This document shows positions 21,040 through 34,278 of a DNA stretch of 64,000 nt, in pieces. The first letter of the stretch is position 1. The number at the start of each line of letters is the position of its first letter. The DNA comes from Oxalobacteraceae bacterium. Its GTDB lineage: Bacteria; Pseudomonadota; Gammaproteobacteria; Burkholderiales; Burkholderiaceae_D. The DNA lies in contig JAUYNR010000022.1 of assembly GCA_030698225.1 (NCBI GenBank), forward strand, positions 62,001 through 126,000, given 5' to 3'. Under the pieces are notes generated by a model. The model searched no databases, was not told the DNA's origin, and saw nothing but the letters and a program-made list of their open reading frames with translations. The position numbers and the translations under genes were made by a program.

Positions 21040-22212
21040 TCATGGCGGTGGTCCGGTTTTTTGTGGCATGAACGATCGCCTGGGTGCAATCGTGTCAATC
21101 ACACGCATGACCCCTGCCGCACAATGCGTACAGCGTGTCATGTCAATGTGCGCCACGCGCTGCATGAAAGCATCGACGGTTTCGATCACCGCCGTGACAG
21201 GTTCCGGCACCTGCAGCGCAAGCCGACATGCCGCAAGCTTCTCGCGCTTGTGGCAACTTGCCAGCAAGCCGTAGTGCCGAATTCGCTTGAATCCCTGCGG
21301 CAGCACGTGTTGCAGGAAGCGTGCAATGAACGTCTCGGCCGACAACTGTTCCACCCGTTTCTTTCCGGTGTTGGCGTTGTCGCGCACGCGAAACGCGACC
21401 ACCCCGTTGTACAGGCCAACCAGCCGTTCATTGGAAATGGCCACCCGGTGCGTGTAGCGCGCCAGATAGTCCAGCACCTGGGCCGGACCACCGATCGGTT
21501 GTTTCGCATACACCACCCAGTCGTGTCGGCGTAGTGCGATGAGCAGATTGCGCCACCGATCGTCACTGATGATCTCCCCCAAGCGCTTATCGATTCGCGC
21601 CTGTTTCAGTGCATCGATGAACTTTCCGCGAAATACGGTCGACAAGGCTTTGACCGGAAACAAGAAGCCGCGTTTGCCATGGAGCCATTGCCCATCACTG
21701 CCCAGCGCACCGCTGGCCACCAGCGCATGCACATGCAAGTGGCGCAGCAGATTCTGCGACCACGTATGCAACACCAGCGAGAACGCCAACGTGCCGCCCA
21801 GCCAGCGCGGGTTGGCGCCGAATTCGATCAGCGTGCGGGAAGCCGCCTCGAACAGGATGTCGGTGATGAGGCGAAAGTGACCACCGGCCAAACCATTCAA
21901 TGCATGCGGAATGGTGAATACCAGGTGGGTGTACGGTACCGGCAACAGTTCGCGGTTGCGTGCTGTGATCCAGGCTTCCTTGGCACGCGTCTGGCACTTC
22001 GGACAATGGCGGTTGCGGCAGGAGTGGTAGACATGCCTGGTGGCGCCGCAGTCCGTGCATTGCTCGACATGCCCGCCCAGCGCTTCGGTGCGGCACGCAA
22101 CAATGGCGCGCCATGCCTTGGTTTGGCTGCGGGCCAGTAAATGCGAAGCCAGATACGCCTCGCCATGGATGCGGAAAATATCGGCCAGTTCAACCCGGCC
22201 GCGAACGGCCAT
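21040..22212 (-). CDS. IS91-family transposase
   Basis: CTDCGATRHVYHSCRNRHCPKCQTRAKEAW zinc motif; PYTHLVFTIPHALN; ARYTHRVAISNERL. Confidence 0.9.
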   Translation of the reverse strand: MAVRGRVELADIFRIHGEAYLASHLLARSQTKAWRAIVACRTEALGGHVEQCTDCGATRHVYHSCRNRHCPKCQTRAKEAWITARNRELLPVPYTHLVFTIPHALNGLAGGHFRLITDILFEAASRTLIEFGANPRWLGGTLAFSLVLHTWSQNLLRHLHVHALVASGALGSDGQWLHGKRGFLFPVKALSTVFRGKFIDALKQARIDKRLGEIISDDRWRNLLIALRRHDWVVYAKQPIGGPAQVLDYLARYTHRVAISNERLVGLYNGVVAFRVRDNANTGKKRVEQLSAETFIARFLQHVLPQGFKRIRHYGLLASCHKREKLAACRLALQVPEPVTAVIETVDAFMQRVAHIDMTRCTHCAAGVMRVIDTIAPRRSFMPQKTGPPP

Positions 22213-22215
22213 TGC

Positions 22216-23079
22216 CTAGCGCCGGGTTGGCAGCGCGGACAGCAAGTCGAGCGGCGAATCGGTCTTGGCAACCTGCTGCCGCAGATGCAGATAGCGGGCC
22301 GTAGTGGTGATGTTGTCGTGACCCATCAGGCGGCCGATGGTGGGGATATCGACGCCGGCTTCCAGCAGATGCGTGGCGAAGGCATGCCGCAACGCATGAA
22401 TGCCGCCTTGCTTCACCACGCCGGCGCGGCGCTTGGCGGCGTAGTAGATCTTTTGGACTTGGGATGCATCGATTGCCCGCTTGTCATCGGTCTTCGGAAA
22501 CAGCCAAAGTGCCGGATGGGCGGCGCGCCAGTACAAGCGCAAGGTATCGAGCAAGGATGGCGACAGCAGGGTATAGCGGTCTTTGCCGCCCTTGCCGCTG
22601 TCGACGCGCAGCATCATGCGTTCGCTGTCGATGTCCGACACCTTCAACGCACAGGTTTCGGACACCCGCAATCCGGACGCGTAGGTCGCCGTCAGCAAGG
22701 CACGATGCTTGAGGTTGAGGCAACTGGCCAGAATGCGGTCAACTTCTTCCCGGGAAAGTATCTCCGGCAATTGCGCGGGCGCCTTGCGGCTGGGAATGAC
22801 AAATGTCGCGGCTGGCTGCTTGAGCGTCACGTGAAAGAGAAAACGTAAGGCGCAAGCGGCTTGGTTGGTGCTGGACCAGGCCAGCTTGCGTTCTTCAATC
22901 AGGTGTAGCAGGTACTGTTGGATTTCGTCTTGCGACAATTGATCGGGGGAGCGGTGGTAGTACCGCGCAACGCCGAGGACTGCGGCGATGTAGGATTCTT
23001 GCGTGCGCTCTGCCAGGCCGCGCAACACCATATCGGACTGCATCTGTTGACGTAACGGACTCATGATCGTTTCCTTCAC
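22216..23079 (-). CDS. tyrosine recombinase/integrase
   Basis: TYASGLRVSETCALKVSDID, GGIHALRHAFATHLLEAGVDIPTIGRLMGHDNITTTARYLH (R-H-R-H-Y). Confidence 0.9.
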   Translation of the reverse strand: MKETIMSPLRQQMQSDMVLRGLAERTQESYIAAVLGVARYYHRSPDQLSQDEIQQYLLHLIEERKLAWSSTNQAACALRFLFHVTLKQPAATFVIPSRKAPAQLPEILSREEVDRILASCLNLKHRALLTATYASGLRVSETCALKVSDIDSERMMLRVDSGKGGKDRYTLLSPSLLDTLRLYWRAAHPALWLFPKTDDKRAIDASQVQKIYYAAKRRAGVVKQGGIHALRHAFATHLLEAGVDIPTIGRLMGHDNITTTARYLHLRQQVAKTDSPLDLLSALPTRR

Positions 23080-25171: not shown

Positions 25172-25205
25172 TAATATTTTGTACATCTTCAATGGAGCAC
25201 TTGCG

Positions 25206-25853
25206 ATGAACACTGTCCTGAACAATCTGACCGTATTGGTGGCCGACGATCACGCGATCGTTCGCATGGGTTTTCGGCTGCTGCTGGAAGGTGCCGGCGC
25301 CGCCCAAGTGATCGAAGCCGATAGCGGCGAGGCGGCGCTCAGCCGCTATGCCGAGGCGCAGCCGGATGTGCTGGTGATGGATATTTCGATGCCCGGCATG
25401 GGCGGACTGGCAGCGCTGATGCGCCTGCGCAGCCACCATCCGGCGGCGCGCGTGCTGATGCTGTCGGCGCACCACGACGCGATTACTCCGGTGCGCGCGC
25501 TGAAAGCCGGCGCGCTGGGCTATCTGAGCAAGCGCTGCCCGCCGGAAGAACTGGTCAAGGCGGTGCACCAGGTCAGCCGCGACCAGCGCTATCTCGACCC
25601 GGAACTGGCGCAGTCGGTGGCGCTCGCGCATCTGACCGGCGACGCCGATCCGGCCGGCACGCTGACCGACAAGGAATTGCTGGTCTTTTTGCAACTGGCG
25701 CAGGGCCGCTCGGTCAATCAAGTCGCGCACGACTTCCATCTCAGCCCGAGCACCGTCGGCACCCATCTGTACCACATCAAACAGAAACTCAATATCAGCA
25801 ACGTGGCCGAAATGACGATGGTCGCACTGCGCAGCGGTTTGATCGAGGCCTGA
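25206..25853 (+). CDS. LuxR-family response regulator
   Basis: VLVADDHAIVRMGFRLLLEG receiver; C-terminal HTH SVNQVAHDFHLSPSTVGTHLYHIKQKL. Confidence 0.85.
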   Translation: MNTVLNNLTVLVADDHAIVRMGFRLLLEGAGAAQVIEADSGEAALSRYAEAQPDVLVMDISMPGMGGLAALMRLRSHHPAARVLMLSAHHDAITPVRALKAGALGYLSKRCPPEELVKAVHQVSRDQRYLDPELAQSVALAHLTGDADPAGTLTDKELLVFLQLAQGRSVNQVAHDFHLSPSTVGTHLYHIKQKLNISNVAEMTMVALRSGLIEA

Positions 25854-25933: not shown

Positions 25934-26242
25934 TCAAACGTGCAGCCAACCCTTGTCCTGTGCCAGGTCGATGAATGCCTGCGTGCCGCGGCTGATTTCC
26001 TCGCCGTTGCCGGGGAATGCCGCCTGCAGATCATCGATGATGGCGGCGACATCGCGCTGGCCGTCGCAACGCTTGAGAATTTCACCGGCCGAACCGTTGA
26101 GCTTGATCAAGCCTTCCGGATACAGCAGGATATAGGCCGTCTGGCTTTCTTCCCAGCGAAACACATAGTGAGGCGACAGCCGGGGCACGACGTTGGCGGA
26201 CAGTGTCATTTCGATCTCGCAGGCTCGGGGTAAAAAACGCAA
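25934..26242 (-). CDS. pqqD: PqqD-like PQQ peptide chaperone
   Basis: VPRLSPHYVFRWEESQTAYILLYPEGLIKLNGSAGEILKRCDGQRDVAAII. Confidence 0.85.
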   Translation of the reverse strand: MRFLPRACEIEMTLSANVVPRLSPHYVFRWEESQTAYILLYPEGLIKLNGSAGEILKRCDGQRDVAAIIDDLQAAFPGNGEEISRGTQAFIDLAQDKGWLHV

Positions 26243-26278
26243 GGGGGCAGAAGCGGCAACGCGCCGCTTCCGGCATAT

Positions 26279-26353
26279 TTAGCGCGTATAAACGTAAGCG
26301 GTTACTTCAAAGCCGAGACGGATTTCGCAGTAAGCAGGGTTTTCCCAGGTCAT
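26279..26353 (-). CDS. pqqA: PqqA precursor peptide (24 aa; absent from ORF track)
   Basis: MTWENPAYCEIRLGFEVTAYVYTR with ExxxY crosslink pair (FEVTAY), directly upstream of pqqD. Confidence 0.85.
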   Translation of the reverse strand: MTWENPAYCEIRLGFEVTAYVYTR

Positions 26354-26476
26354 GATTTTTATCTCCTAAATTATGGTGCGGCGATATGCTGCACCTGTAC
26401 CGAGTATTCGCTGATCGGGCGGCGCCCGCCAGCGGGCATTATCCAAAAACATCTCGTGAAAATCATGAGCCGCGAT

Positions 26477-27229
26477 TCAATCCGGCATCATCCCGGCCAG
26501 CAGTGGCGGCAGGCAGGCGCTGCCCTGTTCGGCGAAAATGCTATGCACCTGAATCCCGCCCGCACCGGCGTCCAGCGCGGCCCTTACATCGGCGCTGCTG
26601 CGAATGCCGCCGACTGCTATCAGTTGCGCGGCAGCGCCGATATGCTGCGCCCATGCCCGCAGCCAGTCGAGACGCTCAGGCCGTTGTGGCAGCACTGCGA
26701 TCACCGCATCGAAACCGGCCGCGACCGCCATCTGCGCCGCTGCGGACAGCGACTGCCCATCCAGCGGCAGCTTCAGCGCCAGCGCGATGCGGCGCCGGCC
26801 GCCGCTTGCCAGCCATTCGCGCTGGTTGGAAATCCTGGCCAGCGCCTGGGTCAGCAGCGCCGCATGTTGCGGCGCCAGCAGGGGCCGGTTGGCAGCAGCG
26901 CTCAAATTGAAACTCAGGTAATCGGCCACCGGCGCTGCCGCCTGCAGCCCGGCCAGCCAGTGCGCGCCCAATGCAGCCGGCGCCGCGCCCTGGCCCAAGC
27001 CCAGGCCGATGCCGATCAGCGCGTTGTTCCGGGTATCCGGCGCGTGTGGAGCAAGTGCGGCCAGCCGCTGCACCAGCAGCGCGACGCTGGAATGGCAGCC
27101 CGGCTGCGCGTCAGGCGTGACGGTGCCGAACTCGACGCTGCCGAAACCGGCCGCCAGCAATTCGGCGGCGCGGCTGCCGTCGCGGTCGATTCCGCCGGCC
27201 AGCCCCAGGCGCGGCAGGGAAGGCTTCAT
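26477..27229 (-). CDS. dihydroorotate dehydrogenase-like flavoprotein
   Basis: GFGSVEFGTVTPDAQPG, YLSFNLSAAANRP, LIAVGGIRSSADVRAALDAGAGGIQVHS. Confidence 0.7.
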   Translation of the reverse strand: MKPSLPRLGLAGGIDRDGSRAAELLAAGFGSVEFGTVTPDAQPGCHSSVALLVQRLAALAPHAPDTRNNALIGIGLGLGQGAAPAALGAHWLAGLQAAAPVADYLSFNLSAAANRPLLAPQHAALLTQALARISNQREWLASGGRRRIALALKLPLDGQSLSAAAQMAVAAGFDAVIAVLPQRPERLDWLRAWAQHIGAAAQLIAVGGIRSSADVRAALDAGAGGIQVHSIFAEQGSACLPPLLAGMMPD

Positions 27230-28308
27230 CCGTAGCGCCGCGCAAAGTCGGCCATGCAGGCAGTCAGCGCCGCCACGCCGGCTTCCGGCATCGCGTTATA
27301 CAGGCTGGCGCGTAGCCCGCCGATCTGGCTGTGGCCGCGCAAATTGTGCAGGCCGCGCTGTTCTGCCGCTGCAAGGAATGCCTCGGTCAGCGCCTCGTTG
27401 GCCAGGTGAAAGCGGACATTGCTGGTCGAGCGATGGCCGATAGCCACCGGCGCATGGTAAAAACCGCCGCTGGCGTCGATCGCCGCATACAGCTGCGCCG
27501 CCTTGCGCCGGTTGCGTTCGCCGATCGCGGCCAGCCCGCCGTTGTCGGCGATCCAGTCGAACACCATGCCGGCCAGATGGATCGCGACGGTCGGCGGCGT
27601 GTTGACGCAACTGTGCTGATCGGCCTGGACCCGGTAACAAAACGGTGCCGGCGCCAGCGGCGCCGGCCGCTGCAGCAAATCCTCGCGCACGATCACCAGC
27701 GTCATGCCGGCGATGCCGATGTTTTTTTGCGCTGCGGCGTAGATCAGCCCGAAGCGCGCCACGTCCAGCGGTGCGGTCAGCAGGCACGAAGTCGCGTCGG
27801 CCACCAGCGGGATGCTGCCGCAGTCGGGCAGCGCCGGATAGGCGACACCGTCGACCGTTTCATTGGGCGTGATGTGGCAATACGCACTGTCGGCCGGCAG
27901 TTGCCAGCCATCCAGCGACGGCGCGGCCAACGGCATGTCGCCGGCGAATTGCGCGGCCAGCGTCACTTCAGTGTAGCGCGCGGCCTCGGCCATTGCGCGC
28001 CGCGACCAGTAGCCGGAATCCGCATAGGCGGCGCGGCGCGAATCGCCCAGCAAATTGAGCGGCACCATCGAGAATTGGTGCATTGCACCGCCGGCCAAAA
28101 ACAGGATCCGGTAATTGTCCGGCAGCGCCAGCAGTTCGGCCAGCCGCTGGCGTGCGTGCGCCAGCGTGGCGCGAAACGCGGCGCCGGTAAACGTCCGTTC
28201 GGCAGCACTGGCACCATCGGGGCCGCGCACCAGCAATTCCTGTTGCGCACGCGCCAGCACCGCGTCCGGCAGGCGGGCCGGACCGGATGAAAAGTTGAAA
28301 ATAGTCAT
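27226..28308 (-). CDS. SerC-like phosphoserine aminotransferase (divergent)
   Basis: FNFSSGPARLPDAVL, AAAQKNIGIAGMTLVIVREDLL, VNTPPTVAIHLAGMVFDWI, STSNVRFHL. Confidence 0.8.
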   Translation of the reverse strand: MTIFNFSSGPARLPDAVLARAQQELLVRGPDGASAAERTFTGAAFRATLAHARQRLAELLALPDNYRILFLAGGAMHQFSMVPLNLLGDSRRAAYADSGYWSRRAMAEAARYTEVTLAAQFAGDMPLAAPSLDGWQLPADSAYCHITPNETVDGVAYPALPDCGSIPLVADATSCLLTAPLDVARFGLIYAAAQKNIGIAGMTLVIVREDLLQRPAPLAPAPFCYRVQADQHSCVNTPPTVAIHLAGMVFDWIADNGGLAAIGERNRRKAAQLYAAIDASGGFYHAPVAIGHRSTSNVRFHLANEALTEAFLAAAEQRGLHNLRGHSQIGGLRASLYNAMPEAGVAALTACMADFARRYG

Positions 28309-28814
28309 TTGAACAGGTAAGCACCGCCGTGCGCGCCGGCCGCCATGAAGAACAGCAGCGGCACCGACAGCATGGTGTTGGTGCGCGACGACAAATGGCT
28401 GATGCGCGAGCAGCGCAGCCGCTCAGGGATGGTGGCAGGCACCAGCCCCAGCACCTTCTGCTGGTGCGGCCACAGCACGAACCAGACGTTGAGCATCATC
28501 AGCGTGCCGATATACAGGCCGATGCCGATCGGCGCCAGCGCCCCGGACAGGCTCAGCGCACCGCCCAGCGTGCCGCGCTGCCACAGCATCAGCAAGCCGA
28601 CGCTCCAGGTCACCACCGCCGCCCAGCGGAACACCCCGTGCTCGCGATTGAGCAGCGCCTGAAAGCGCGGGCTGTCGTCGCTGCTCAAGTCCTCGGCACA
28701 TAGCGGCCGGTAGGTCGGCCGCTGCACCACGCTGGAATAGTTATGGCCGACCCAGATCACGCCGGCCATGAAGTGCGCCCAGCGCAGCAGCAGATCTAAA
28801 ATCGCGGCATCCAT
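28305..28814 (-). CDS. PuuD (urate hydroxylase N-terminal)-like membrane protein
   Basis: LLRWAHFMAGVIWVGHNYSSVVQRP, GLYIGTLMMLNVWFVLWPHQQKVLG, SSRTNTMLSVPLLFFMAAGAHG. Confidence 0.6.
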   Translation of the reverse strand: MDAAILDLLLRWAHFMAGVIWVGHNYSSVVQRPTYRPLCAEDLSSDDSPRFQALLNREHGVFRWAAVVTWSVGLLMLWQRGTLGGALSLSGALAPIGIGLYIGTLMMLNVWFVLWPHQQKVLGLVPATIPERLRCSRISHLSSRTNTMLSVPLLFFMAAGAHGGAYLFK

Positions 28815-28821
28815 CGCAACC

Positions 28822-28917
28822 TCACAGAATCACAAAATGCAGCAGTGCCAGCAGCAATGCGGTCAGCAGCACGCCCAGCAGTACGGTGCCGGCTGCGGTG
28901 TCGTAGGGATGGCGCAT
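28822..28917 (-). CDS. 31-aa putative single-TM small protein
   Basis: MRHPYDTAAGTVLLGVLLTALLLALLHFVIL*; ATG abuts pqqE stop (TGAATG); followed by next CDS after 7 nt. Confidence 0.6.
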   Translation of the reverse strand: MRHPYDTAAGTVLLGVLLTALLLALLHFVIL

Positions 28918-30087
28918 TCATTCCTCCATGAAGGCGGTCGACATCACGCCGTTGGCGCGCCTGACCAGCGGCTTATGAAAGCGGATCGGCTGCGCGGCGG
29001 CTTGCACCGCCGCCTGGATCAGATGATGGTGCGGCGATTTGCTGCAGGCCGGATCGGTATTGCCGGCGTCGCCGGTGAGCAGGAAAGCCTGGCAGCGGCA
29101 GCCGCCGAAATCCTTCTCGCGCTCGTCGCAGCTGCGGCAGGTTTCCGGCAGCCAGTCCAGTCCGCGGTATTTGCGAAACAGCGGCGACTCGTGCCAGATC
29201 CAGTCCAGCGGCCGGTCGCGCACCGACACGAACTCCAGGCCCGGAATCATGCGCGACTCCTGGCACGGCATCGCCACGCCGTCCGGCGCGACGGTCAGAT
29301 GGATCGCGCCCCAGCCGTTCATGCAAGCCTTCGGGCGGTCTTCGTAGTAATCGGGAATCACGTAGTAGATCGCCATTTTCTTGCCCAGCTGTGCACGCTT
29401 GTCCTGCACCACCGCTTCCGCCGCGCGCACCTGTTCCAGGCTCGGCATCAGTTCTTCGCGATTGATCAGCGCCCAGTTGTAATACTGCAGATTGGCCAGC
29501 TCCAGGTATTCGGCCCCGAGCCCGGCCGCATAGTCGATCATCGCGCCGACCTGGGCGATGTTCTGGCGCCCGACCGGCATGTTCAGCACCATCGGGAAGC
29601 CGTGCGCCTTGATCAACCGCGCCGCTTCCAGTTTCAGCAGATGCGCCTTGGCGCCGACCAGCTCGTCGGTCAGTGCGGCTTCGGTCGATTGCATCGACAG
29701 CTGGATCTGCTTTAAGCCGGCCTTTTTCAGCGCGATCAGGCGTTCTTCGCTGAGGCCGATGCCGGAAGTGATCAGGTTGCTGTACAGGCCGATTTCCTCC
29801 GCGTATGCGACCAGCTGTTCCAGATCCCTGCGCTGTAACGGTTCGCCGCCGGTGAAGCCGACCTGCAGCGCACCCAGCGCGCGCGCTTCGCGCATCACGC
29901 GCCGCCATTCGTCGGTCGACAGTTCGAGCGCAGCGTAATCCTCGAAATCGAGCGGGTTGCTGCACCACGAACATTTCAGCGGACAGCGGTAAGTCAATTC
30001 CAGCGCCAGCCACAGCGGCTTGCCCTGGCCGTCCAGACTCACTCCGGTAGATTCCTTGGGCATGGCGACATCCTTTCCGAGATTCAA
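28918..30087 (-). CDS. pqqE: PqqE radical-SAM PQQ synthase
   Basis: LALELTYRCPLKCSWCSNPLDF; LQVGFTGGEPLQRRDLEQLVAYA; SPYPASM-type CxxC...GCRCQAFLLTGDAGNTDPACSKSPHH. Confidence 0.95.
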   Translation of the reverse strand: MNLGKDVAMPKESTGVSLDGQGKPLWLALELTYRCPLKCSWCSNPLDFEDYAALELSTDEWRRVMREARALGALQVGFTGGEPLQRRDLEQLVAYAEEIGLYSNLITSGIGLSEERLIALKKAGLKQIQLSMQSTEAALTDELVGAKAHLLKLEAARLIKAHGFPMVLNMPVGRQNIAQVGAMIDYAAGLGAEYLELANLQYYNWALINREELMPSLEQVRAAEAVVQDKRAQLGKKMAIYYVIPDYYEDRPKACMNGWGAIHLTVAPDGVAMPCQESRMIPGLEFVSVRDRPLDWIWHESPLFRKYRGLDWLPETCRSCDEREKDFGGCRCQAFLLTGDAGNTDPACSKSPHHHLIQAAVQAAAQPIRFHKPLVRRANGVMSTAFMEE

Positions 30088-30235: not shown

Positions 30236-30880
30236 TCAGGCCTCAGTTCGCTGGATTGTCACCAGGCCGTGGCGGGCAGCCAGTTGGAGCAGTTTGAAAT
30301 CATTATCGGCATCGAGCTTTTGCCGGATCAGCGTCAGATAGTTGAGTACCGTTTTCGGACTGAGCTTCATCGAACTGGCAATCTCGGTGGCCGATTCCCC
30401 ATGGACGCGCATGCGCAGCACTTCAAACTCCCTTGGGGTCAGATGGGCGAATGCACCCTCGCCGTCGACGGCTTCCTGGGCAAGAATTTGCGCGATTTCC
30501 GGCGAGAACACGCGCTTGCCGGCGGCGATGCGCCGGATGCCGTCGATCACGTCCTCCGGCTCGCAATGTTTGGTCAGATAGCCAATGGCGCCACTGCGCA
30601 ACGCCTGGGTGATGTGCCCCGCGTCCTCGTGCATCGAGAGGACCAGGACTTTCAGCTCGGGGCGGCGCGCCAGCATGCCGCGAATCGCCTCGATGCCGCT
30701 GCTGCCCCTGAGGCTGAGGTCAACCAGCGCCACATCGGGGGCCGTGCGCAGCACGAGAGCGTTGGCTTCATCGGCCCTGGCGGCTTCGCCCACCACCTGC
30801 AGGCCCGGCTCGGCATCGAGCAGCCGGCGATAGCCGGTTCTTACGATGGCGTGGTCGTCGACCAGAATAATGCGGATCAT
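30236..30880 (-). CDS. LuxR-family response regulator
   Basis: MIRIILVDDHAIVRTGYRRLLDAEPGLQVV; HTH HGESATEIASSMKLSPKTVLNYLTLIRQKL; start moved to 30880. Confidence 0.85.
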   Translation of the reverse strand: MIRIILVDDHAIVRTGYRRLLDAEPGLQVVGEAARADEANALVLRTAPDVALVDLSLRGSSGIEAIRGMLARRPELKVLVLSMHEDAGHITQALRSGAIGYLTKHCEPEDVIDGIRRIAAGKRVFSPEIAQILAQEAVDGEGAFAHLTPREFEVLRMRVHGESATEIASSMKLSPKTVLNYLTLIRQKLDADNDFKLLQLAARHGLVTIQRTEA

Positions 30881-32187
30881 ATTTCCTCCTGTTGTTCTGT
30901 TGCGGTCAGCGGCAGGCTGATCCGAAGCTGCAGGCCGTTCGCTGGCCCCGGCCCGAGCTCCAGACTCCCGTCCACCATGTGCAATCTTTCCTCGATACCA
31001 AGCAGGCCGCCGCCGCGAGGCGGGCCGTCCGGAGCCAGTCCGCAACCGTCGTCCTCGACCAGTAGCCTCAGCATCCCGACCTTCGCTTCGATCTTCACCC
31101 GGCACTGCGTTGCGCCGCTATGCCGCACGACATTGGTCAGCGCCTCCTGCACCACCCGATACAGCACCAGCCCGGTATCTTCATCGAGCGGTGGCAGTCT
31201 GGCCGGCATATCGAGCTGGAAGCTGATTCCCGATGCACGCTGTTGCCAGCTGGCAAACAGTTCGCGCATGGCGCTGGCCAGTCCCAGTGCATCCAGGCCG
31301 TGCGGCCGCAGGCGCTTGAGCATGTCGCGCAACTGCTCGCCGCTGGTACGGACATCGCGGCGCAGATCCTGAGCGCATTCGACGATGTGCGTGGCGTCGA
31401 GCTGTTCGGCATTGCGTTCGAGATAGGCGGCTGTCACGCCGATCGCGGTCAGTGTCTGTCCCATCTCGTCGTGCAATTCCCTTGCCAGAGCCCGGCGTTC
31501 GTCCTCCTGCACCCGGATCAGCTGGCGCGACAGCTGCCGTTGCGCTTCCTGCGAGGTCGACAGCGCAGAGGCGAGTTTGTCGATAGCGCCTGCGACCTGC
31601 CTGAATTCACGCAGCGCGAAAGCGGGCAGCGCGGCATCTGTTTCGCCCCTGGCCATGCGTTGCAAGCCGGCCTCCAACTCGCGGAACGGTGCCAGTGCAC
31701 GGTCGGCCGACCAACGGGCGACCAGCAAGGTTGCTCCAGAAAAGAGCAACAGGGTGATGCAAAGACGAACAATGTCTTCCAGTCCCTCCTCGATTTCCGA
31801 GTTTGGGTTGGGTGCAATGCGCAGGGTCTGGTCGCCGAGCCGGATCAGCTGACCGGCGCCGCTTGCCGGTTCGACGCCGAGTATGGCGGCCAGCCAGCTT
31901 GTTACGGAAGCACTGCGTTCAGCGGGAGGTGCGGCGCCGATGCTGACGGAGAGGTGGCGTAGCGGGCCGCTATTAAGGATCGCGTCCAGACGGGCAGCGG
32001 CCTCGGCCGGCGGCAGTTCGGGCTCGATCCGGCCGGCATCGAGCAGCACCCTGACCAACTGCTCCGAGGCGACCACCTCGGCGGTGACGTCATTGCGCAG
32101 CGAATACAAGTTGATCAGTACGGTCACGAGCAACAGCCCTAGCAGCATTGCCCCGAGATAGCCGACCAACCGTCGTCTGAGATCCAT
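30877..32187 (-). CDS. sensor histidine kinase (MoxY type)
   Basis: MDLRRRLVGYLGAMLLGLLLVTVLI; ALARELHDEMGQTLTAIG; start reset from ORF-track 33108; 4-nt overlap with regulator. Confidence 0.85.
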   Translation of the reverse strand: MDLRRRLVGYLGAMLLGLLLVTVLINLYSLRNDVTAEVVASEQLVRVLLDAGRIEPELPPAEAAARLDAILNSGPLRHLSVSIGAAPPAERSASVTSWLAAILGVEPASGAGQLIRLGDQTLRIAPNPNSEIEEGLEDIVRLCITLLLFSGATLLVARWSADRALAPFRELEAGLQRMARGETDAALPAFALREFRQVAGAIDKLASALSTSQEAQRQLSRQLIRVQEDERRALARELHDEMGQTLTAIGVTAAYLERNAEQLDATHIVECAQDLRRDVRTSGEQLRDMLKRLRPHGLDALGLASAMRELFASWQQRASGISFQLDMPARLPPLDEDTGLVLYRVVQEALTNVVRHSGATQCRVKIEAKVGMLRLLVEDDGCGLAPDGPPRGGGLLGIEERLHMVDGSLELGPGPANGLQLRISLPLTATEQQEEI

Positions 32188-32403
32188 CGTCTGCCCCAAG
32201 TCCAAATAGTCAACCTGCGCAGCAGGTTCCGTACCAGGCGATGAACGGGCAAATGGATACCGGGAATTTTTCCTGCTTTTGCAATGAGTAAGTCCCGAGA
32301 CTTGCGGCAGAGCCGCTCTCATACTTGCCTCGCCTATCGGAATGGATGGGTCCACCCGGTGTTTCGGGAATATAACGACGCAAAATACAGGAGACACAAA
32401 ACA

Positions 32404-34278
32404 ATGGAATCGATCCGGCTCAATTCTCGCCAGACCTTGCTCGCGGCCCTCGTGGCCGCCACCCTTTGCACTCCGGCGATGGCCGCCGGCAGCAAGGTGA
32501 GCTGGGATGACATTCTCAACGACGACAAAACCACCGGTGATGTGCTGACTTACGGCCTTGGTCTCAAGGCACAGCGCCATAGCACCATGGAAACGATCAA
32601 CACCGCTAACGTTGCCAATCTTGTGCCGGCCTGGAGTTTTTCCTTCGGCGGTGAAAAACAGCGCGGCCAGGAAGGACAGGCGCTGGTGCACGACGGCGTA
32701 ATCTATGCGACCGCCTCCTACTCCCGCATCTTTGCCATTGATGCCCGCAGCGGCAAACGCCTGTGGGAATACCAGCACCGCTTGCCGGAAGGCATTCTGC
32801 CATGCTGCGATGTGGTCAACCGCGGTCCTGCCATTTATGGCGACAAGATATTCTTCGGCACGCTGGATGCCGGCATCGTCGCGCTCAACAAGGATACCGG
32901 GAAGGTAGTCTGGAAGAAGATGTTCGCCGACTATAAGGTGGGTTACACGATGACCGGCGCGCCATTCGTCGTCAAGGACAAGAAGAGCGGCAAGGTACTG
33001 CTGGTGCATGGCTCCTCCGGCGATGAGTTCGGCGTAGTCGGCTGGCTGTATGCGCGCGACCCGGATACCGGCGAAGAAGTCTGGGCACGGCCGCTGGTCG
33101 AAGGTCACATGGGCCGCCTGGATGGCAAGGATAGCGTCACCACCGGCGACGCCAAAGCGCCGTCATGGCCGCGCGACAAGGATGGCAAGCTGGTGGAAGC
33201 CTGGAGCCATGGCGGCGGCGCACCGTGGCAGACCGCCAGTTTCGACGTTGACACCAATACCGTGGTCATAGGCGCCGGCAACCCGGCGCCGTGGAACACC
33301 TGGAAGCGCACCAAGGAAGGCGACGACCCGAAAAACTGGGACAGTCTGTTTACCTCCGGCCAGGCGTATGTCGACGCCGGCAGCGGCGAACTGAAAGGTT
33401 TCTTCCAGCACACACCGAACGATGCCTGGGATTTCTCCGGCAACAACTCGGTGGTCCTGTTCGAGTACAAGGATCCGAAGACCGGCAAGCAGATCAAGGC
33501 CTCGGCGCACGCCGACCGCAACGGCTTCTTCTTCGTCACCGACCGTGAAAAGCTCGCCACCGGCGCCGGCTACCCGAACAAGCCGACCTCGCTGATCGGC
33601 GCCTGGCCGTTCGTCGACGGCATTACCTGGGCTTCCGGCTTCGACCTGAAGACCGGCAGGCCGATCGAGAAGGGCAACCGTCCACCGGCGGTCAAGCCTG
33701 GTGCGGATAAGGGCGATACCATCTTCGTCTCGCCGCCTTTCCTCGGCGGTACCAACTGGCACCCGATGTCATACAGCCCGAAAACCGGCCTGTTCTATAT
33801 TCCGGCCAACCACTGGGGCATGGACTACTGGACCGAACACCTGACCTACAAGCCCGGCTCCGCCTACCTCGGCCAGGGCTTCCGCATCAAGAAGCTGTTT
33901 AACGACCATGTCGGCATCCTGCGCGCGATCGATCCGAAGACCGGCAAAATCGCCTGGGAACACAAGGAGAAATTACCGCTCTGGGCCGGCACGCTGACCA
34001 CCGCCGGCAACCTGCTCTTCACCGGCACCTCCGATGGATTCCTCAAGGCGTTCGATGCCAAGAACGGCAAGGAGCTGTGGAAGTTCCAGACCGGCTCCGG
34101 CATAGTGTCCGTGCCGGTCACCTGGGAGATGGATGGCGAACAGTATGTCGGCATCGAATCCGGCTATGGCGGCGCGGTGCCGTTGTGGGGCGGCGATATG
34201 GCCGAACTGACCAAGCCGGTGTCGCAGGGCGGCTCGATGTGGGTATTCAAGCTGCCCAAGCAACTGGCGCAACGCTGA
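32404..34278 (+). CDS. exaA: PQQ-dependent alcohol dehydrogenase, ExaA/PedE type
   Basis: Signal peptide; vicinal cysteines ILPCCDVVNRG; FFQHTPNDAWDFSGNNSVVLFEYK; propeller W-motifs. Confidence 0.9.
   Translation: MESIRLNSRQTLLAALVAATLCTPAMAAGSKVSWDDILNDDKTTGDVLTYGLGLKAQRHSTMETINTANVANLVPAWSFSFGGEKQRGQEGQALVHDGVIYATASYSRIFAIDARSGKRLWEYQHRLPEGILPCCDVVNRGPAIYGDKIFFGTLDAGIVALNKDTGKVVWKKMFADYKVGYTMTGAPFVVKDKKSGKVLLVHGSSGDEFGVVGWLYARDPDTGEEVWARPLVEGHMGRLDGKDSVTTGDAKAPSWPRDKDGKLVEAWSHGGGAPWQTASFDVDTNTVVIGAGNPAPWNTWKRTKEGDDPKNWDSLFTSGQAYVDAGSGELKGFFQHTPNDAWDFSGNNSVVLFEYKDPKTGKQIKASAHADRNGFFFVTDREKLATGAGYPNKPTSLIGAWPFVDGITWASGFDLKTGRPIEKGNRPPAVKPGADKGDTIFVSPPFLGGTNWHPMSYSPKTGLFYIPANHWGMDYWTEHLTYKPGSAYLGQGFRIKKLFNDHVGILRAIDPKTGKIAWEHKEKLPLWAGTLTTAGNLLFTGTSDGFLKAFDAKNGKELWKFQTGSGIVSVPVTWEMDGEQYVGIESGYGGAVPLWGGDMAELTKPVSQGGSMWVFKLPKQLAQR

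Follow-up and report, generated by a model that had tools for sequence, protein, structure and literature searches.

A Herminiimonas/Glaciimonas-lineage form of a PQQ gene module that may allow cofactor synthesis to finish without oxygen

Organization of the locus

We identified a seven-gene operon for pyrroloquinoline quinone (PQQ) synthesis in the window, by which we mean the whole 64,000-nucleotide stretch of Oxalobacteraceae bacterium DNA that was analysed. The operon occupies positions 25934-30063 of the minus strand and joins pqqE, pqqA and pqqD to genes for a short transmembrane (TM) peptide, TM31, and for proteins resembling the urate oxidase PuuD, the phosphoserine aminotransferase SerC and dihydroorotate dehydrogenase (DHOD, PyrD). 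It represents a conserved PQQ module in the form found in the Herminiimonas/Glaciimonas lineage. Its genes, in order of transcription, are:

28918..30063, minus strand: pqqE, a module-type radical S-adenosylmethionine (SAM)/SPASM enzyme of 381 amino acids (TIGR02109 488 bits, above cut-off; own clade, 100/100)
28822..28917, minus strand: TM31, a 31-amino-acid single-TM peptide, partner of the PuuD-like protein (precedes it in 14/15 module loci; also in a widespread paralogous pair)
28305..28814, minus strand: PuuD-like membrane protein of 169 amino acids (PF06181 5.5e-11 over 72 residues; alignments; helical model with a predicted local distance difference test score, pLDDT, of 85)
27226..28308, minus strand: SerC-like pyridoxal 5'-phosphate (PLP) enzyme of 360 amino acids, phosphate/side-chain pocket lost (family scores and residue comparison)
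26477..27229, minus strand: DHOD-like flavin mononucleotide (FMN) TIM-barrel protein of 250 amino acids (quinone domain, orotate loops and catalytic Ser absent; model pLDDT 90)
26279..26353, minus strand: pqqA precursor peptide MTWENPAYCEIRLGFEVTAYVYTR, with the cross-link pair E16/Y20 and the module signature Cys9 (TIGR02107 and PF08042 above cut-offs)
25934..26209, minus strand: pqqD peptide chaperone of 91 amino acids from the conserved start, or 102 from 26242 (TIGR03859 95 bits, above cut-off)

An earlier model's reading of these letters (the sequence-only reading) had proposed this gene order and strand, and both are borne out by the open reading frames and family scores. Homologues place the start of PqqE at the MPKE of position 30063, correcting 30087, and that of PqqD at 26209. 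The tight packing also claimed holds for the first five genes, in which pqqE abuts TM31, one gap measures 7 nucleotides and the PuuD/SerC and SerC/DHOD pairs overlap by 4 nucleotides each, but not for the DHOD-pqqA and pqqA-pqqD junctions, with gaps of 123 and 69 nucleotides. Neither pqqB nor pqqC, operonic in canonical pqqABCDE, is present within the window locus. The stretch between pqqA and pqqD (26210-26280) contains an inverted repeat, GAAGCGGC...GCCGCTTC, perhaps an attenuator keeping the pqqA transcript in excess. No consensus sigma-70 promoters were found, and terminator-like sites were no more frequent than expected by chance.

PqqA, PqqD and PqqE of the module

All three PQQ proteins clear their family cut-offs, with 488 bits against 381 for PqqE, 37 against 20 for PqqA and 95 against 46 for PqqD; scored as MftC of the mycofactocin pathway, PqqE reaches just 93 bits. 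In a PqqE tree, 15 module sequences were separated from 8 canonical ones by a branch with 100/100 support. The precursor peptides differ correspondingly: every module-type PqqA reads W..P.[YFW]C[DE][ILV]RLGFEVTAYVY[VT]R, whereas all canonical PqqA sequences carry Ser or Thr where the module has Cys9, and Met instead of the Ala before Tyr (TMY). The cross-link residues E16 and Y20 are retained in the window PqqA.

The genomes G127, G253 and G497 bear most directly on what this precursor becomes. In each, the module-type pqqA adjoins pqqB-pqqC, only one pqqE was detected, which is of module type, and there is one pqqC. Since the sole detected pqqE is of module type and the module-type pqqA lies beside pqqBC, the module precursor most likely becomes PQQ, and these single-set genomes offer the best evidence for that fate. 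In G208, G449, G183 and G692, the module pqqADE genes come as a second set, in addition to a complete canonical cluster.

SerC-like and DHOD-like enzymes

The SerC-like protein scores 379 bits against TIGR01364, below the cut-off of 443.6, and 422.8 against the looser PRK05355, above the cut-off of 253. It retains equivalents of the PLP lysine Lys198 and of Asp174, Asn239, Thr240 and Arg335 (numbering of the yardstick sequence), and with them the PLP-phosphate residues and the carboxylate-binding arginine. In phosphoserine aminotransferase, His41-Arg42 binds the substrate phosphate or side chain; none of the 15 module sequences keeps this pair, and all have Phe plus Thr, Ser or Gly instead. 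This Phe40 is one of only two positions that are invariant in the 13 genome copies and differ from both canonical references. The protein has lost its phosphoserine pocket and kept its PLP site. That it might be the only SerC of the organism is ruled out by a canonical serC with the HR pair on contig C97 of the same genome (530 bits).

The DHOD-like protein presents a comparable picture, its best PyrD score being 86 bits where the cut-offs are 200 or higher. In alignment with PyrD it keeps the FMN motifs, but the quinone domain at the N terminus of class-2 enzymes, the orotate-binding loops INRMGFNN and GGLSG and the region of the catalytic serine, SSPNT, are missing or replaced. Its model is a confident barrel (pLDDT 90), with E. 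coli PyrD 1f76 as the best match in the PDB (E 7e-15, template modelling score 0.80), and a family profile search returned no MftD match. By these comparisons, it has lost the orotate pocket and kept the FMN site. The earlier view of a non-canonical operon is supported: the operon is conserved as a unit, and its extra genes resemble tailoring functions more than duplicates of housekeeping genes.

The membrane pair

The sole family match of the PuuD-like protein is Urate_ox_N (PF06181), over 72 residues. Four long helices are predicted, and the protein lacks CXXCH and the build of PuuD, with its eight-TM DUF989 and C-terminal cytochrome c domain. A PDB search with the model gave no significant fold match. 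Five histidines are invariant among the PuuD-like proteins of the Burkholderiales module set, and those at positions 24, 59 and 117 are missing from a paralogous pair of TM peptide and PuuD-like protein that has no pqq neighbours. TM31 had no family match in profile searches and is present in 14 of the 15 module loci; it was not found between pqqE and puuD of the Methylovirgula sp. HY1 plasmid, and L139, the sole annotated record carrying it, leaves it unannotated.

The paralogous pair, a TM31-like peptide with a four-helix PuuD-like protein (about 45% identical), occurs without pqq genes in L090-L096 (e.g. L096:8811-9392 and L092:8400-8990), and a PuuD-like protein is encoded in about 100 of 399 genomes of the order. 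In two genera (L087:11842-12387 and L089:6689-7243), related small CXXCH proteins with no Pfam match are encoded next to the DHOD-like gene, on the other strand, and are possible electron acceptors.

Distribution of the module

The module is conserved in 15 loci, comprising 13 genomes and 2 plasmids, and its hosts, which are beta-, gamma- and alphaproteobacteria, represent at least 10 genera; this answers the conservation check proposed in the sequence-only reading. A contig scan with the single DHOD-like protein returned only Herminiimonas sp. CN and a Glaciimonas metagenome-assembled genome, both close relatives. The module is present in these two and in G127, which represents a further genus of the family; outside the family it occurs in four additional genera of the order (G497/G253, G208, G449 and G183) and, outside the order, in four of the class (G692, G663, G870 and G650). 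Both plasmids, of Methylovirgula sp. HY1 and Acidibrevibacterium fodinaquatile, belong to Alphaproteobacteria. The prevailing order is pqqA-pqqD-pqqE-TM31-PuuD-SerC-DHOD, and the window lineage has pqqA-pqqD at the end. Because the same order recurs in many genomes, it is not a product of chance, and an arrangement unique to this strain is ruled out. The Methylovirgula plasmid carries, close to the module, a further radical SAM-peptide pair annotated cbpA/cbpB (L138:6980-8559).

Other pqq genes in the same genome

The assembly holds three pqqB and three pqqC genes, on contigs C117, C94 and C64 (loci L019, L018 and L017), and two further pqqE genes, on C117 and C94. A canonical pqqA-B-C-D-E cluster is present on each of C94 and C117, in both cases near a sigma54-type regulator. 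The earlier statement that pqqB and pqqC are lacking is consequently true of the locus only, and the complete canonical cluster elsewhere that the same reading had set against its own proposal exists in two copies. The third pqqB-pqqC pair, on C64, is an orphan; the tree gives no support for it as the phylogenetic partner of the window operon, as it sits on a long branch and does not group with pqqBC of G127, G253 and G497. GC content is 0.609 in the window, 0.544 on C94, 0.572 on C117 and 0.604 on C64. Given that the assembly is a draft of 123 contigs with an estimated 2% contamination, and that C94 deviates most in composition, contamination may account for extra pqq clusters, and the exact pqq copy number is uncertain. 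In Herminiimonas sp. CN, the canonical cluster near a contig end consists of pqqA-pqqB-pqqC and then a stop-containing fragment of pqqE (L121:5636-7705); its canonical pqqD and pqqE may have been lost or misassembled, in which case the module pqqE would be the sole one.

Genomic context and regulation

Three neighbouring genes frame the operon in the window:

25179..25853, plus strand: NarL-type response regulator downstream of the operon, convergent (open reading frame translation)
30236..31105, minus strand: NarL-type response regulator upstream of the operon, with the gene start inside the open reading frame (open reading frame translation)
32401..34275, plus strand: PQQ-dependent methanol/ethanol-type dehydrogenase (TIGR03075 707 bits, above cut-off)

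NarL-type two-component genes thus lie on both flanks, as first read, and a regulator resembling the downstream one sits between pqqE and pqqB in L052. The window dehydrogenase is the likely consumer of PQQ; in L129, too, the module is followed by a PQQ dehydrogenase. The window enzyme carries WDFSGNN in place of the WDYDG of lanthanide-type PQQ dehydrogenases, and is for this reason probably of the calcium, ExaA-like type. Near the downstream two-component genes, positions 21040-23079 encode a zinc-ribbon IS91-type transposase and a tyrosine recombinase, a possible mobile-element boundary.

Several module loci lie close to genes of anaerobic metabolism. The anaerobic ribonucleotide reductase genes nrdD/nrdG adjoin the module in L087 and L130, the oxygen-independent ubiquinone genes ubiU/ubiV in L131 and napG/napH in L089; all exceed named equivalog cut-offs except NapG, which passes the broader MauM/NapG model. 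Proteins of the NnrS type and with heme-d1 domains are encoded in L087 and L089. Perfect FNR boxes (TTGAT-N4-ATCAA) occur 108-189 nucleotides upstream of pqqA in L131, L132 and L139, and a box with a single mismatch in L087, against a chance expectation across the 13 genome loci of <0.2 per 400 nucleotides, even at two mismatches. A Crp/Fnr gene adjoins the module of the HY1 plasmid. For the window lineage, control by the flanking two-component systems is more likely.

The nitrate reductase gene narG is enriched in genomes with the module: 10 of the 13 carry it, against 20 of the 67 others (Fisher p = 0.002), or 8 of 10 against 20 of 60 by genus (p = 0.008), p-values that are indicative given a comparison set hand-picked from the same family and order. 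The window genome (G000) has narG (2167 bits). Within genus g23, narG occurs in the one module genome and is absent from six without the module; in the window's own genus, G012 has narG and lacks the module.

Relation to known systems

Although the sequence-only reading took the operon for an undescribed system, Li et al. 2025 (PMC12423496) reported pqqAED-puuD-serC-pyrD clusters in June 2025. The cluster type being already described, the window operon is a further case of a recently described kind. The hosts named there, all denitrifiers, are Hyphomicrobium denitrificans, H. nitrativorans, Halomonas sulfidovorans, Stutzerimonas stutzeri, Methylophaga nitratireducenticrescens and Azoarcus sp. 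DN11. In H. denitrificans, the cluster's pqq genes have fatty-acid, anaerobic-ubiquinone and denitrification genes as neighbours and are down-regulated along with these in regulator mutants; the authors offer as speculation that the cluster carries out the last steps of PQQ formation in an oxygen-independent way (PMC12423496). Our literature searches found no paper on the cluster beyond this one.

The window operon agrees with these clusters in gene content, in the PuuD-SerC-PyrD module order and, to the extent that narG equips its host for nitrate respiration, in its denitrifying context, and its genome, like those hosts, has a complete classical PQQ set elsewhere (C94 and C117). It differs in having pqqE first and pqqA-pqqD last, while G127, G253 and G497 differ in carrying a single merged set, with module-type pqqA and pqqE alongside pqqBC. 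The text of PMC12423496 makes no mention of TM31. The present analysis adds that PqqE of the module forms a clade of its own, that its PqqA bears a signature, that a TM peptide accompanies the PuuD-like protein, that the pockets of the housekeeping enzymes have been lost and that the module is more widely distributed and also found on plasmids; it further adds the genomes in which module-type pqqE alone was detected.

Compared with canonical pqqABCDE, the module shares PqqA, PqqD and PqqE above family cut-offs and the E16/Y20 pair, and departs from it in the missing local pqqB and pqqC, the separate PqqE clade, the Cys9 and EVTAYVY of PqqA and the four extra genes. The mycofactocin MftABCD cluster likewise joins a precursor peptide, a chaperone, a radical SAM enzyme and an FMN barrel enzyme; unlike it, the module has a PqqA precursor with EXXXY and a DHOD-like FMN protein rather than the lactate-dehydrogenase-type MftD, and adds a PLP enzyme and a membrane pair. 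With the PuuD urate oxidase (Doniselli et al. 2015, PMC4562309), the PuuD-like protein shares membrane Urate_ox_N/DUF989 homology over 72 residues, but it is half the size, has four predicted long helices instead of eight TM segments, lacks the cytochrome c domain and is paired with a TM peptide, and no purine genes were noticed near the module.

Proposed function and alternatives

Hydroxylation by PqqB needs oxygen. The eight-electron oxidation catalysed by PqqC needs it as well (cited in PMC12423496), and recent work on anaerobic methylotrophs still describes the use of PQQ enzymes under strict anoxia as limited by this requirement (PMC11102522). We consider it probable, though well short of certain, that the module lets the bacterium finish PQQ without oxygen, its extra genes replacing the oxygen-requiring steps. 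Judging by family membership and conserved residues, PqqD would present PqqA to PqqE, which would cross-link Glu16 to Tyr20 as in the standard pathway, and a protease from outside the operon would free the cross-linked residues. With oxygen, PqqB would hydroxylate the intermediate and PqqC would cyclise and oxidise it, both from copies elsewhere in the genome; without oxygen, the extra genes would most likely take over. PuuD is thought to pass substrate electrons to cytochrome c rather than to oxygen (PMC4562309), which makes the PuuD-like/TM31 pair a reasonable candidate for an oxygen-independent ring hydroxylation, placing water-derived oxygen on the tyrosine ring and handing electrons on to the respiratory chain. 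Dehydrogenation and ring closure would fall to the FMN-binding DHOD-like protein and the PLP-dependent SerC-like one, and the resulting PQQ would serve the quinoprotein alcohol dehydrogenase encoded alongside when the cell respires nitrate.

Several observations weigh against this proposal. Its main weakness is that no module genome was found without pqqC, which is present in 13 of the 13 tested. The window genome has two canonical clusters besides the module, which puts its need for the module in question, no convincing FNR box lies upstream of the window operon or in close relatives, and three module genomes (G497, G253 and G663) lack narG. Moreover, the use of cytochrome c in place of oxygen by PuuD is itself not fully proven (PMC4562309). 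The pqqC in all 13 module genomes would also suit extra genes that are accessories to ordinary aerobic synthesis, working with PqqB and PqqC at low oxygen in, for example, an oxygen-sparing side step, the repair of an intermediate or the removal of electrons from PqqE. Such a role would also accommodate G127, where pqqB-pqqC-pqqA-pqqD stands divergently beside the module, and the window copy, which lacks FNR boxes and lies beside two-component systems and a PQQ dehydrogenase. However, most loci (among them G208, G449, G183, G692 and the plasmids) join pqqADE and the module without pqqBC, as if these had been swapped out, and the anaerobic gene context is strong; we regard an accessory role as rather unlikely.

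The distinct PqqA signature and PqqE clade, the second pqqADE set beside a complete canonical cluster in most genomes and the resemblance of the FMN and PLP enzymes to tailoring steps might instead point to a PqqA-derived redox cofactor other than PQQ. Mycofactocin would be the precedent, in which the FMN enzyme MftD deaminates a cross-linked dipeptide. This idea is at odds with G127, G253 and G497, in which module-type PqqA stands beside pqqB-pqqC and only module-type pqqE was detected, and with the PQQ dehydrogenases that adjoin the module in the window and L129, and we judge it improbable. A variant, in which the PqqA of the module gives the non-PQQ cofactor under anoxia, with the FMN barrel, the PLP enzyme and the membrane pair all acting in tailoring, and lineages sharing pqqA and pqqE with pqqBC make both products, seems to us improbable too. 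Chance capture of housekeeping paralogues serving serine or pyrimidine synthesis would explain why the SerC-like and PyrD-like proteins match those families, but hardly a gene order kept in 15 loci, the lost phosphoserine and orotate pockets and the canonical serC in the same genome; as far as sequence can refute it, this explanation is refuted, and we find it scarcely credible.

If PQQ is indeed finished without oxygen by the module, this would solve how denitrifying methylotrophs use PQQ dehydrogenases despite an oxygen-dependent PqqC. It would also provide a parallel to the HemF/HemN and UbiIH/UbiUV pairs, and would imply new FMN, PLP and membrane chemistry.

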